Origin: Planctomycetota bacterium
GTDB lineage: Bacteria; Planctomycetota; Planctomycetia; Planctomycetales; Planctomycetaceae
Assembly: GCA_027618475.1 (NCBI GenBank)
Contig: JAQCEJ010000033.1
Location: 1 to 51,062, forward strand
Direction of reading: 5' to 3'
DNA: 51,062 bases
This document shows positions 2,612 to 27,789 of this stretch, piece by piece (position 1 is the stretch's first letter; every line of letters starts with the position of its first letter). A program made the translations under genes and the position numbers. Under the pieces are notes generated by a model that saw nothing but the letters and a program-made list of their open reading frames with translations, was not told where the DNA came from and ran no database searches.

Positions 2612-4885
2612 TCAGGGAGTCGATGTTTTCAAAAACAGCGATGGCACAAGGCCGCGTCGATTGTACGATAATGCATTCTCAGCTGGTATTGCCGGGCGAC
2701 CCAATTCTCGTGGGCCGAAGCAGACAAGACGGTTGGATTCGGCGATCAGCAGGCAATTATCCATGGCAAAAAGATTGCCACCGCCGACTCCGAAACGAGC
2801 GCGAAGCGGATACCGCTGTGTCAATCGTCCGGTCCGGTGATCGACTAGAATCAGTTCATCGCGCGTCGGCCAGAGTACTTCTCGCGGCGTGAGCAGTCCG
2901 CGGCCGAAGCCGTGTCCCGGTGAATCCTGAAAACCGACATGCCAGGCAACACGTCCCGAGTTCACTTCGAGTCCCCAGAGCGAACGTCCGCTGGCAATCA
3001 GGGTTTCACCGTGTGCACCGATGAGGTGGATGATGTGATCGGGAAGTTGCCGACTCCAGATTCGTTTTCCCGTGCGACTGTCCCATGCCGAAATGACGTC
3101 GCTGTCGCGGGGGGCGACGATGATCTTTCCATGATAGGCCAACGGTACTGTTAGCCCCTGTAAACGATGTGGCAGTCGCGGCGAAGTCCTCACGTCGCGG
3201 CTCTGTGGATACATGCTCACCCAGCGAACCATACCGGTGCCGGCGTCAACCGCTGCAAGCGCCCCGATGTCGGTACAGAGAAATAGTCGCCCGTCATCGT
3301 ATGTCAACAATAAAGATGTGATCAGATTGAGGTCCGTCTCGTCATTGCGAATCGCGGCACAGACTGGCGTCATCCAGAGCAAAGTGCCCGATTCGCTGGA
3401 GAGGCAAGCGATGCCGATCTGATTCTCCGGAGCACCTTGCCTGACAGCAACGAACACTCGATCGTTATGCGCAATCGGCGAGCCTTCGAACATCCAGCCT
3501 GATTGCCGCGGAGCGAGTTCCTGCGAAGAAATCTTCCAGAGAAGCCGGCCTTCTCCATCTGCCAGATCGAGGCAGACGATGTCGGTCTGCCAGGAGCGGG
3601 CTTCATGCGGACTGCGACTGGTGATCGGCGTTCCGAGCCTGGCGAACAGTTTTCCGTTATTTATCGTCAGCGTGAATCGAGGCGAACCTCGGGAAGGAAA
3701 TTCGGGAAGCCATGAGACGTCGGTCGACGTTTCGGGAAAGAGAATATCGTTGTCATCGACGGCGGTCGGCCACGCTGGATCGCCGCTCGAGAGCTGCACG
3801 CCGCGAATGTGTTCGGCGTCGTTGAGAAAGACAAGGGCATCGTGTTTCGCGAGATGATCCGCATCGGCGGAAGGTATGACATAACCAACGGGAAATGTAG
3901 CAAGCGGCCTGTTCGACAGGGCTGACGTCGATCGGTTGAGCAACGGCTCGGGGACATCAGGCAGGTCGATCTGCCATAAGGGAACGCCGAGTTCTGTCCA
4001 GTCGTTTGAGATATAATCCCGTTGCGCCGTCCCGGCAAACGTCGTAATCGATTTAGCAGGGGGCGATTTTTCCCAGTGGGAAAACTCTTCGGCGATCGCA
4101 TCGATGCGATCGGCTAGACTGCCGTTGATTCCCGCGAGAGTTCCCTCGGCATGGGGAAACAGACGGCGAAACTCCTCACGTTCGAATTTCGATTGTAGGA
4201 ATTCTCCCTCAAACACGCGGCACAATACGATGCGGGCCAACACTTCGGCGGGAGGATATCGCGGATTGGGAAAACGGAAGTCGCTGTTCTCAGACAGAAA
4301 CGCGGGAGTCGATTCCAGCGGGAGCAATTGAGCCCACCACGACCGGGCGATGTGATAATCTCCTTGTTCCCACGCCTGTTCGCCGAGCGTCCATAATGAC
4401 AGATCGCCGAACTGGCTGCTGAACGCCTGCTCGACAATCTTCCGGATGTGTTCGGGATTGTGATGGACTTCCCAGTCTTTAAACCAGAGTTGAGCCTGTG
4501 GATCGAGCCGCTTTTGCAGGATAACTCGACCTTCGGGCGGAAATTCCGACAACATCCCCTGGCAAAGATAGCCTGCGTTGACGTAACGTCCTGATGCAAT
4601 CGGTACGAGCGAATGTTGATGATTCTCTGCGATGTTCTGCACCAGTTCGATCGCCTGATTCCACTGTTTATCGGCGAGATAATCCTTCACGACCTCCAGT
4701 TTGCGAACAGCTTCCTGATCGACATCAAACGAGATGTGCTGCCCGAACGACATATTCACGGCGGGGCGATCTTGGGCATCGGCGGAACGAACAAGGGCCA
4801 TGACGAGAACAATAGCCGCAAGTAGAACGCCACAGCGTCGAAAGCAACTGGGGAAATCGACAATAAGAGTATGGGGGATCTTCAT
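2612..4885 (-). CDS. Secreted PQQ-like beta-propeller repeat protein
   Basis: About 757 residues from the chosen ATG at 4885. A longer frame opens upstream, but this start places a signal peptide at the very N-terminus (basic stretch, then LLAAIVLVMAL, ending near SADAQ). A helical, TPR-like region follows (about residues 50-130). The C-terminal half carries repeated blades with the PQQ_2 pattern in which a G-x-x-x-W ends a strand (GTLLWMT, GMVRWVS, GKRIWSR, GRVAWHV). Proteins of this type are abundant and secreted in planctomycetes; no catalytic residues or cofactor ligands can be assigned, so the function is unknown. It precedes ispH by 13 nt. The first 60 codons of the longer frame look non-coding. 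Confidence 0.8.
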   Translation of the reverse strand: MKIPHTLIVDFPSCFRRCGVLLAAIVLVMALVRSADAQDRPAVNMSFGQHISFDVDQEAVRKLEVVKDYLADKQWNQAIELVQNIAENHQHSLVPIASGRYVNAGYLCQGMLSEFPPEGRVILQKRLDPQAQLWFKDWEVHHNPEHIRKIVEQAFSSQFGDLSLWTLGEQAWEQGDYHIARSWWAQLLPLESTPAFLSENSDFRFPNPRYPPAEVLARIVLCRVFEGEFLQSKFEREEFRRLFPHAEGTLAGINGSLADRIDAIAEEFSHWEKSPPAKSITTFAGTAQRDYISNDWTELGVPLWQIDLPDVPEPLLNRSTSALSNRPLATFPVGYVIPSADADHLAKHDALVFLNDAEHIRGVQLSSGDPAWPTAVDDNDILFPETSTDVSWLPEFPSRGSPRFTLTINNGKLFARLGTPITSRSPHEARSWQTDIVCLDLADGEGRLLWKISSQELAPRQSGWMFEGSPIAHNDRVFVAVRQGAPENQIGIACLSSESGTLLWMTPVCAAIRNDETDLNLITSLLLTYDDGRLFLCTDIGALAAVDAGTGMVRWVSMYPQSRDVRTSPRLPHRLQGLTVPLAYHGKIIVAPRDSDVISAWDSRTGKRIWSRQLPDHIIHLIGAHGETLIASGRSLWGLEVNSGRVAWHVGFQDSPGHGFGRGLLTPREVLWPTRDELILVDHRTGRLTQRYPLRARFGVGGGNLFAMDNCLLIAESNRLVCFGPRELGRPAIPAENALSYNRRGLVPSLFLKTSTP

Positions 4886-5187: not shown

Positions 5188-5709
5188 ATGCCGAAAACAA
5201 GAACGTCGAATTCGAAGACTGACGCGCAAGTACCGCTCGTTGGTATAATTATGGGCTCTCGCTCCGATTGGGAGACGATGAAGCATGCCGCGGAGATGCT
5301 GGATGAGTTAAAGATTCCGTATGAAAAGCAGGTCGTTTCGGCACACCGAACGCCGGAGAGGATGGTGGAATACGCACGCACAGCCGAGCAGCGGGGTTTG
5401 GCCGTTATTATCGCCGGTGCAGGGGGAGCGGCTCATTTGCCGGGAATGGTAGCGTCGTTGACGACATTACCGGTGTTGGGAGTACCGGTTCAAAGCCGGG
5501 CGCTTCAAGGGCTCGATTCACTGCTGTCAATTGTGCAGATGCCGGGGGGGATTCCCGTAGGCACCCTGGCAATTGGCGAAGCGGGAGCGAAAAACGGTGC
5601 GTTGCTCGCTGCACGCATTCTGGGGATATCCAACAGCGACATTCGCGATCGACTGCACACGTATCAACGCGAGCAAACCGACCGCGTGCTGAAAGATTCC
5701 CAGTTATGA
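5188..5709 (+). CDS. purE: N5-carboxyaminoimidazole ribonucleotide mutase (PurE class I)
   Basis: Converts N5-CAIR to CAIR in de novo purine synthesis, working with the PurK product encoded directly downstream. The 173-residue protein shows the class I signatures: [12 protein letters not shown] near residues 20-31 (phosphate-binding loop), [10 protein letters not shown] near 50 (catalytic His), [13 protein letters not shown] near 75-88, and [19 protein letters not shown] near 115-133. The pairing with purK supports the N5-CAIR mutase role over the class II AIR carboxylase. A purine-rich stretch upstream (AAAGAGAGTCAGG) may serve as ribosome binding site. The stop overlaps the purK start by 4 nt (ATGA), indicating translational coupling. 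Confidence 0.97.
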
Positions 5710-21622: not shown

Positions 21623-24568
21623 ATGCCACGTTACGACTTCAAACGCATCGAAACCAAATGGCAAGCCCATTGGGAGGCCGAGCAGACGTTCAAGACCGAA
21701 ATGGTCCCTGACAAACCGAAAATGTATGTGCTCGATATGTTCCCGTATCCTTCCGGCGACGGCCTGCATGTCGGACACCCTGAAGGTTACACGGCGACCG
21801 ATATCCTTTGCCGGTTCCATCGCATGAGAGGCAAAAACGTGCTGCATCCGATGGGATGGGATGCTTTCGGCCTCCCCGCCGAACAGCACGCCATCAAAAC
21901 GGGAACGCATCCGCGCGTCACCACATACAAGAACATCGACACCTTCCGCCGGCAGCTCAAGATGCTCGGCTTTAGCTACGACTGGAGCCGCGAGTTCTCG
22001 ACGACCGATCCCGATTATTTTCGCTGGACGCAGTGGATTTTTCTCGAACTGTTCGACACCTGGTATGACCCGGCGTACGAATGGACCGGACAAGACGGCG
22101 TGAAACGAACCGGTAAAGGCCGACCGATTGCCGAGTTGCCGATCCCCGATGATGTGAAATCGCAGGGAACCGAAGCCGTCCGACGCTATCAGGACAAACA
22201 TCGACTCGCCTATCAACAGGAAGCGCCGGTGAATTGGTGTCCGGCACTCGGCACAGTGCTCGCGAACGAAGAAGTCATCGACGGCAAGAGTGAACGAGGT
22301 TCGCATCCCGTAGTCCGCATGCCACTGCGACAGTGGATGCTCCGGATCACCTCGTATGCCGATCGCCTGATGTCTGATCTCTACGCCTAAGACTGGTCCG
22401 AATCGATCAAACTGCTGCAGCGAAACTGGATCGGCCGCAGTGAAGGAGCCGAGGTCGATTTTTTTGTTCCGCAGCTTGCACTCGGCGATAAGCCGGGGGC
22501 ATCCCATCCTTCACACGGGTTGGCTGCGTTTCAAAAATGGCGTGTCCAGCGGGCGAAAGCCGATTTTCCGAGCGGACTTGTTGACAATTGCATTCGCATC
22601 TACACGACACGTCCCGATACGCTGTACGGTGCCACCTACATGGTGCTCGCACCCGAACATCCCTTTGTCGATCGACTGACGACGCCGCCACAAAAAGCGG
22701 CGGTCGAAGCCTATCGTCAGCAGGCCGCGACAAAGAGCGACCTCGACCGCACCGATCTCGCGAAAGACAAGTCAGGCGTGTTCATTGGCAGTTTTGCGAT
22801 CAACCCAATCAACGGACAGAACGTACCGATCTGGATTGCCGACTACGTGCTGATGAGCTACGGCACTGGTGCGATTATGGCCGTCCCCGCGCATGATCTT
22901 CGCGACTGGGAGTTCGCCGTCAAATATAAGATTCCGATTCTGCAGGTCGTCGAACTTCCTGACGGATACGAACCAACAAAAGAAGAACGCGACGTTGCCC
23001 TTCAATCTGATGACGGCGAATTGCTGTACCCGTTCGCGGGTCAAGGGACGGCGATTCATTCGGGACCATACGACGGTCTGCCGACGGCCGAATTCAAAAC
23101 CAAAATTACGGCGGACCTCACCGAAAAAGGGATCGGCCGGCTTGCCGTCAATTACCGGCTGCGCGACTGGCTATTCAGCCGACAGCACTTCTGGGGCGAA
23201 CCGTTTCCTCTGTGGCACGAACTCGATTCCGACGGCAAACCGACGGGACTGATGCGCACTGACCGCGCCGAAGACCTGCCGATCAAACTCCCCGAAAACT
23301 TCGAATTCAAGCCGCACGGCCGGCCCGATCCTCCGCTCGAAGAAGCGGGAGATACCTGGCTCTATCGCACCGCTGACGACGGCGTAAAGCTCAAACGCGA
23401 GACCAACAGCATGCCGCAGTGGGCGGGGAGTTGCTGGTACTATCTCCGCTTCGCCGATCCGAAAAATGGTGAGCGGCTGATCGACCCCGACGTCGAAAAA
23501 TACTGGCTACCGGTCGACGTCTACATCGGCGGTGCTGAGCACGCCGTGCTGCACCTGCTTTACGCGCGGTTCTGGCATAAAGTACTGTTCGACCGCGGAT
23601 ACGTGAGCACGGTCGAACCGTTTCATCGATTGGTCAACCAGGGGATGATTCTTGGGGAGATGGAGTTCATCGCATTTCAAGATCCATCGACGGAAAACTC
23701 GTGGGTTTCGGCTGAAGACGTCGAGTACGACGGCACGCATGGGTTTCACGTGTCGTCAAAAGTGAAGTTGCATGCTGTGAAACGCCCCTCCACCGATGTT
23801 GAAAAAGTCGGAGGAGCATTCGTCCTCGTCGATAATCCGAACATTCGCGTGCATGCCTTTTCATCCAAGATGTCGAAATCTCGCGGCAATGTCATCAATC
23901 CCGATACGGTCGTGACCGACTACGGGGCCGATTCGCTCCGCCTTTACGAGATGTTCATGGGACCGCTCGAAGCGACGAAACCGTGGAGCATGCAGGGCGT
24001 CGAAGGGGTGCATCGCTTTCTTGGCCGCGTCTGGCGGTTGATCGTCGACGACCGCACCGATGACGTGCAATTGAACCCGACGGTGCAGGATGTCGAACCG
24101 ACGTCAGAACAACTTCGCCTGCTGCACAAGACGATCAAAGCAGTGACCGAGGATATCGAAAAACTGTCGTTCAACACGGCGATCAGTCGGATGATGGAAT
24201 TCACGAACGAACTCGGCCCGCAAGAGGCGAAGCCGAAAGCGTTGCTCAACAGCTTCGTGCTGTTGCTTGCTCCCTTTGCGCCGCATCTCGCCGAAGAACT
24301 CTGGCAGACGTTGGGGAACTCGAAAACGCTGGCCTACGAACCGTGGCCGAATTACGACGAAAGTCTACTCGTCGAAACGGAGATCGAAATCCCTGTGCAG
24401 GTCAACGGCAAGTTGCGGGCAACGGTCAAAGTTCCCGCCGACGCCGACAAACAGACGATGGAAATTCTTGCAACAAATCACGAAGTCATCGCGAAACAGA
24501 TTGAAGGGAAGACGATCGTAAAGAGTATTGTCATCCCCGGGCGAATGGTGAACTTTGTGGTGAAATAA
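21623..24568 (+). pseudogene. leuS: Leucyl-tRNA synthetase interrupted by one in-frame TAA
   Basis: Class I synthetase that charges tRNA-Leu. The whole 982-codon span is in one frame and collinear with LeuRS, but codon 256 (22388-22390) is TAA. Before it: the HIGH-type HVGH at 49-52 and the start of the Rossmann core, ending [11 protein letters not shown]. After it, with no residue missing: [21 protein letters not shown], which is a conserved LeuRS segment. The rest of the enzyme is intact: CP1 editing domain ([31 protein letters not shown]), KMSKS at 749-753, anticodon-binding domain and C-terminal [15 protein letters not shown]. In relatives a Leu-like residue usually sits at the stop position. 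No ATG or clear ribosome site follows the stop (the first in-frame TTG is at 22520), so re-initiation is unlikely. Sequencing error, recent nonsense mutation with a second leuS elsewhere, or readthrough are possible. Confidence 0.9.
22388..22390 (+). other. In-frame TAA in leuS
   Basis: Single stop codon, context TAC GCC TAA GAC TGG, at codon 256 of leuS. A one-base change would give TTA, TCA, CAA, GAA or AAA, among others; Leu (TTA) fits family alignments best. Other genes here end in TAA normally (for example the sialidase-like gene), so reassignment of TAA is unlikely. Confidence 0.95.
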
Positions 24569-26475: not shown

Positions 26476-26550
26476 GTCTCCTGTGTCGGTAATGGGGATG
26501 ATGTGCTTCTGAAAATTTTACCATAGTGCACTCGACGCGACCACGCTACG

Positions 26551-27789
26551 TCACCGGAATCTTACTCGTACCTGATTCAGAACGTCTCTTACAAGATACT
26601 CTGCCATGAGTTCTCCCGCTTGACGATGCCCGTCGGTATTCCAGTGTCCCGTTCCCATGCGTGTATTCTCGAATCCGTGCCAATAACGGTGTTGTTTCTC
26701 GGCAAGTTTCTGCATCGGCTCGGCAAGATTGAGCACGTGTATGCCGATGCGTTTACAGAAGTCGCGAATGCGATGGTCGGGAAACAGTAAGTCGGCGATT
26801 TCAAATTGTGTTTTGAAGTGATCCCGGACCTGGGGGTCGGGGTGAACCTGAACGCCGTTACTCAACGTGACCACGCAGAAGGCGGCATCATGTGCGTCGA
26901 CTTCCGCGTGTATTGCTTCGAGGAGGTGTTCGGTCATCGACCAGGCCTGCGTCCAATCGGGATCCGTCGGAGGAAGGTAACAGCCGACATCGATTCCCAC
27001 TTCGGCGAAGGGGTGATCGGCGCCGTTGACCTCAGGTACTTCGCGATGGTTCTTCCAATGATTGATGAGTTGAAGTACTCGGCTGGCGTTGATCGCCTTG
27101 ACTTTGAGTCTGGTCGTCGTCCGACGGGCCTTTATTTGATCGGGATGTTGCAGAAACGAACTGTCGAGTTTGAGATCGCCATTGTCGAGCATGAAAAACG
27201 GACGATTGTTATCGGGTTCGAGAACCTGAGAATTGTTGCGGATGTCGTTGCCCGTGACGAATGCCAACAGTACGAGATCGGGCTCGAACTGCCAGACCCG
27301 TGAGCGCAACATTTGCAACTCTTGTGCCGTCCCGTAACCCGAAACGCCGAAGTTGATCACCTCGACGGTTTGTCCTTTGAAATGCGGGTTCTCGGTCAAT
27401 TTCCGTTCCATCACCGACCAGAACGTTTCGCTCGCGTCGACCTGCATCGCCTCGGCGTAAGAATCTCCCAGCACGGCAATGCGGAATGTTTCCGGCGGTT
27501 TTGGGATCGAATATTCGCGATCGCGTAGTCCATAGCTGTTCGTCGTGACATACGCCCGGCCTTCCTGCGTGAACCATCCGGCAAAATCAGGAGCGAGAAC
27601 CGTCCCGCAGTCGTCGTCGGGTTGATACGGCAGTGGGTAACTCACGCCGAGCAGCCGCAGTAGAACTTCGGCAGATAACACACCGAAAATACAGCCGATG
27701 ATCAGCAGCAGCACGCGCCAACGTCGAATTCGAGCTGCTCGCAGCACAGATTGCGTTGGATCGTTGATTGATTCGGCTGAGGACGACAT
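26551..27789 (-). CDS. Membrane-anchored SGNH/GDSL-type hydrolase
   Basis: 412 residues. One N-terminal membrane helix (about 25-45, VLLLIIGCIFGVLSAEVLL) anchors it, with the catalytic domain outside. SGNH blocks are visible: AVLGDSYAEA near 104-113 (block I, nucleophile Ser), VINFGVSGYGTAQE (block II Gly), LLAFVTGNDIRNN (block III Asn), and near the end GHWNTDGHRQAGE, which supplies the Asp-x-x-His of block V. The substrate is likely an acyl ester on a glycan or lipid, but family members vary, including acetyl-transfer partners such as AlgX-like proteins. It is divergent from xdhC. Start ATG chosen because it leaves a short cytoplasmic basic tail before the helix. Confidence 0.88.
   Translation of the reverse strand: MSSSAESINDPTQSVLRAARIRRWRVLLLIIGCIFGVLSAEVLLRLLGVSYPLPYQPDDDCGTVLAPDFAGWFTQEGRAYVTTNSYGLRDREYSIPKPPETFRIAVLGDSYAEAMQVDASETFWSVMERKLTENPHFKGQTVEVINFGVSGYGTAQELQMLRSRVWQFEPDLVLLAFVTGNDIRNNSQVLEPDNNRPFFMLDNGDLKLDSSFLQHPDQIKARRTTTRLKVKAINASRVLQLINHWKNHREVPEVNGADHPFAEVGIDVGCYLPPTDPDWTQAWSMTEHLLEAIHAEVDAHDAAFCVVTLSNGVQVHPDPQVRDHFKTQFEIADLLFPDHRIRDFCKRIGIHVLNLAEPMQKLAEKQHRYWHGFENTRMGTGHWNTDGHRQAGELMAEYLVRDVLNQVRVRFR

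Follow-up and report, generated by a model that had tools for sequence, protein, structure and literature searches.

The LeuRS gene (leuS) at 21623-24568 (+) is interrupted by a single in-frame TAA, which is probably an error of consensus or assembly in an apparent metagenome bin, with one full-length LeuRS made from the locus. The living organism very probably makes this single LeuRS from the whole of the locus, and the TAA at 22388-22390 would stem from one incorrect or unrepresentative base, or from a short run of them, in the draft consensus. We infer that the draft consensus is at fault here and that the cells do not all carry the TAA in their DNA. This reading is favoured because no other leuS was found in an assembly whose completeness is rated at 100%, because the gene is as conserved as the intact genes of its relatives, because the stop is unseen in 108 relatives and has two atypical residues directly upstream, and because leuS is also broken, in another manner, in a second draft of the family (G069), so that damage to this gene does happen in drafts of this kind. 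Counting against it, faults like the leuS TAA are rare in the sampled genome (38 of 117 candidate stops scanned). The original prediction had listed four causes for the stop; a second leuS and readthrough found no support, whereas an error and a very recent or minority mutation both remain.

An isolated stop in an otherwise conserved leuS

Translation of 21623-24568 gave 255 residues, the TAA, 725 residues and a terminal stop, and the sole interruption of the frame is the TAA at codon 256 of 982 (terminal stop counted), in the context ...CTC TAC GCC TAA GAC TGG.... The frame matched TIGR00396 with 994.4 bits when neighbouring matches in the frame were joined, with one TAA inside the match, compared to a curated cut-off of 548.4 bits, and Pfam analysis revealed synthetase (PF00133), editing and anticodon-binding domains. 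In the alignment of the product to structure 1h3n, the second aligned stretch (194-282) spans the stop. The N-terminal part (21623-22387, +; 255 codons), delimited by translation, TIGR00396 and PF00133, carries what we take to be the HIGH-type motif, and the remainder (22391-24568, +; 725 codons and the terminal TAA), delimited by translation, Pfam and the 1h3n alignment, carries the editing part, a presumed KMSKS-type motif and the anticodon-binding part. These analyses bear out the prediction that a whole LeuRS is present in one frame except for the TAA and that no residue is missing, as the TAA occupies one alignment column that is sense-coded in all 108 relatives' loci covering it.

To judge by its surroundings, the stop is more than a chance product of the frame. 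Of 7,163 stops flanked on either side by 40 open codons (1.55 Mb of the same genome), it ranked third for the coding potential of both flanks, and the two stops ranked above it are both followed by a start codon at most two codons downstream.

The gene showed none of the loss of constraint expected of a pseudogene when 889 sites were compared with 72 relatives of similar divergence, sequences more than 75% identical to the scored one being excluded. Residues unseen in relatives occupied 11 of the 889 sites, compared with a mean of 15.4 (s.d. 6.8, range 5-33) in the 72 relatives, 48 of which had at least as many as the interrupted gene; the mean score of 56 of the 72 was the same as or below that of the interrupted leuS. 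Conservation on both sides of the stop, as had been claimed from the translation, is confirmed, and because the gene is undecayed, the stop is either very recent or absent from the organism.

Possible origin of the stop in the consensus or in the population

We compared the stop site with a set of 109 leuS loci of relatives, of which 108 cover the site and one does not. All 108 have a sense codon in the codon-256 column (22388-22390, +), namely Leu in 73, Val in 30, Ile in two, and Met, Cys and Thr in one each, and a stop was found in none. Among the codons for Leu and Val, TTA alone differs from TAA by a single base, and it too was found at this site in none of the 108 relatives. In the genome as sampled, 5.5% of the Leu codons are TTA, compared with none of the 83 Leu codons of the interrupted leuS. 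Because 103 of the 108 relatives have Leu or Val here, and because the sole one-base neighbour of TAA among these codons is rare or absent, more than one base is likely to be wrong at the stop.

The residues immediately upstream (codons 250 to 254, Met to Tyr; 22370-22384, +) are atypical as well. Residues 250 and 254 are both unseen in the 108 relatives: Tyr254, two codons before the stop, has the lowest score of the 888 scored residues at a position where 103 of 108 relatives carry Asp or Glu, and Met250 has the fifth lowest. Two of the 11 unseen residues thus lie within six positions of the stop (P = 0.009, for a count chosen after inspection of the data). This clustering hints at a small faulty patch rather than one point mutation, and we take it as a hint only because it was spotted post hoc and because close pairs of unseen residues, at most four positions apart, occur somewhere in the sequence of 53 of the 72 comparable relatives. 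A small inversion of nine bases (codons 254-256), worked out by hand, was rejected, since it would give Leu254, itself unseen in relatives, and would explain no more.

The nature of the draft is in line with a consensus fault. The window (the whole 51,062-nucleotide stretch of DNA analysed) corresponds to contig C39 (1-51062); the draft as a whole comprises 5,930,672 bases and 218 contigs and is rated at a completeness of 100 and a contamination of 0.87. Taken in order, contigs C1-C123 make up three size series that interleave and never increase, one of 69 contigs (14.3-5.1 kb), one of 49 (61.4-28.5 kb) and one of five (131-103 kb), which points to text-sorted, length-ranked numbers with more digits than 218 contigs need and therefore to a much larger assembly. 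This numbering suggests that the draft is a metagenome-derived bin. Its closest named relatives are planctomycete bins with at most 65% identity over the C-terminal part of leuS (records of the genome itself possibly excluded), and the genomes returned by two leuS searches, one of them of the family, included none of the same genus.

In the family search, 117 of 130 genomes, this genome included, matched at E 1e-100, with no in-frame stop in another genome's leuS among the matches listed. The other search likewise gave no stop in another leuS among the matches listed, and the counts of both leave out stops between separate pieces of one gene. Two stop-bearing matches of that other search, in G020 (TGA) and G027 (TAA), were set aside as not belonging to the leuS of these genomes, since both are weak (E about 1e-12), score far below the cut-off and cover profile positions 20-178. 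In a search of the phylum, 24 of 149 genomes reached E 1e-150, and the interrupted leuS was alone in containing a stop. In contrast to the single stop studied here, leuS of G069, a family draft of 470 contigs and 97% completeness, is broken in another way: the gene (C78:22003-25162, -) is divided between two frames of a single contig, one matching profile positions 1-426 and the other 324-843. The two pieces are separated by 13 bases and both contain positions 324-426 (about 100), and neither match contains an in-frame stop. The break in G069 is probably a misassembly, and it indicates that broken leuS genes do occur in such drafts.

The strongest competitor of a consensus error is a real nonsense mutation, which would be present in part of the population, or too recent for decay to have set in, with its carriers dying or complemented by an unassembled copy. 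A lone stop in a gene that is otherwise intact would fit such a mutation, and since a bin represents a population, its consensus may pick up a minority allele. LeuRS is essential, however, and a nonsense allele should remain very rare; moreover, the step from Leu or Val to TAA by one base is possible only from TTA, the codon missing at this site in relatives. We therefore consider a nonsense mutation possible, though clearly less probable than a fault in the consensus.

Other conceivable routes to a functional LeuRS

A second leuS, one of the causes proposed from the sequence, is excluded within the assembly: searches of the draft (5.93 Mb, 218 contigs) with each half of the gene and with TIGR00396 revealed none, and the genome's only other matches, a 1042-aa frame on C60 and a 701-aa frame on C182, fell below the cut-off and were taken as other class I synthetases. 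An intact second copy could hide in gaps between the 218 contigs, but the completeness of 100% speaks against its being missing from the draft, and the interrupted copy lacks the relaxed constraint expected of a long-redundant gene, which together make such a copy very unlikely.

Readthrough of the UAA to give enough full-length LeuRS appears just as unlikely. In its favour, the genome shows no alternative source of LeuRS, and the base following the TAA is G; in E. coli, the relevant passages of PMC11126739 describe measurable low-level readthrough and reduced termination accuracy with a G 3' of the stop. The same passages, however, give TAA as the stop with the least readthrough in that species. 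In addition, no tRNA with a stop-reading anticodon (UUA, CUA or UCA) was found among 49 tRNAs, which take in 48 whole-genome RF00005 matches (150 of 181 first-look candidates scored), a set that a degenerate tRNA could escape. TAA terminates 332 of 976 stop-to-stop frames of at least 300 codons in 1.84 Mb sampled, and 72 of these 332 have a G next. Finally, the absence of the stop from the 108 covering relatives gives no sign of a retained regulatory device.

Two observations on the tRNA complement concern other codons. One tRNA of 74 nt, with the anticodon UAA and a short variable loop (L164:7844-7917, -, corresponding to G000:C114:27844-27917 of the genome with the interrupted leuS) stands beside an ordinary 86-nt tRNA-Leu(UAA); it would decode UUA, not UAA. 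Across 40 genomes, two sequences matched it over the full length (78-79%); both are short 'tRNA-Leu(CAA)' genes, and the arrays of 17-18 tRNA genes in which they sit belong to two genomes of the same class (L278, L279). Three weaker matches proved on checking to be tRNA-Trp. A tRNA-Ser(UGA) was not found among the 49 tRNAs of this genome and may fall in an assembly gap.

To see how far interrupted genes extend beyond leuS, we surveyed coding potential in 1.84 Mb of the 5.93 Mb (128 stretches, window included), which yielded 117 candidate stops that combine good coding potential on the flanks with the lack of a start within five codons; the best 60 of the 117 were listed. A Pfam scan covered 38 of the 117, namely 37 of the 38 best-ranked and one lower down, the one omitted being 26527-27300 of the window, which is antisense to a GDSL lipase gene. 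Among the 38 scanned, a convincing domain ran across the stop in leuS (TAA) and in two accessory genes: a Peptidase_C92-like gene (L209:4102-4842, -; in-frame TAG at 4447) and a gene for a 23S rRNA-intervening-sequence protein (23S_rRNA_IVP; L171:5069-5428, -; in-frame TAA at 5219). A PF10712 match over a TGA (L166:9778-10272) was set aside as an artefact, PF10712 being a family of antisense artefacts, and stretches with a start shortly past the stop were mostly two different adjoining genes. Genes interrupted like leuS are rare in the scanned part and nothing indicates a reassigned code; a general TAA-reading code found no support in the 38 of 117 candidates scanned or in the use of TAA as terminator of 332 of 976 long frames. 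The absence of a stop-reading tRNA from the 49 found, the normal terminator role of TAA and the count of two further domain-crossing genes among the candidates scanned leave readthrough, another cause suggested beforehand, unsupported.

Slighter still is the chance that the species carries the UAA in fixed form and makes LeuRS by regulated readthrough or re-initiation, the level of the synthetase tracking termination efficiency. The frame contains no ATG, GTG or TTG in the 43 codons past the stop, in agreement with the claim that no usable re-initiation site follows. The first start-like codon, a TTG at 22520-22522 (+), lies beyond a stretch of 10 protein letters and has no ribosome-binding-like stretch before it as judged by eye, and translation starting at or after it would lose six residues that do not vary among 108 relatives (W258, Q266, W269, G271, S273 and G275).

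For the same reasons, a newly split LeuRS, in which a C-terminal piece made by re-initiation would join the 255-residue piece in a working enzyme, can practically be dismissed, its nearest in-frame start lying more than 43 codons on, past six invariant residues and without a visible ribosome-binding-like stretch, despite the precedent of the two-subunit LeuRS of Aquifex aeolicus (cited in a passage of PMC3436685).

Comparison with known LeuRS genes and draft errors

A fault in the consensus thus remains the preferred explanation, and the case carries a caution: where an essential gene in a draft is undecayed but apparently dead, with atypical residues by its stop, the consensus should be suspected first. 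A stop that proved genuine and fixed would be remarkable, since an essential synthetase would then rely on readthrough.

Like the two-subunit LeuRS of Aquifex aeolicus, the interrupted leuS encodes LeuRS in two open pieces. Each Aquifex subunit has its own gene, whereas the second piece here is without a usable start. With bacterial LeuRS (TIGR00396; structures 1h3n and 3zgz), the gene shares homology on either side of the stop as well as the catalytic, editing and anticodon-binding parts, and it differs from this family in one TAA at codon 256, shortly ahead of the editing-domain region, so that the assembled sequence falls short of the one uninterrupted frame of a bacterial LeuRS. Errors and minority alleles occur in draft assemblies, and it is these that the interrupted leuS resembles: an isolated stop, unseen in relatives, in a gene that is otherwise conserved.
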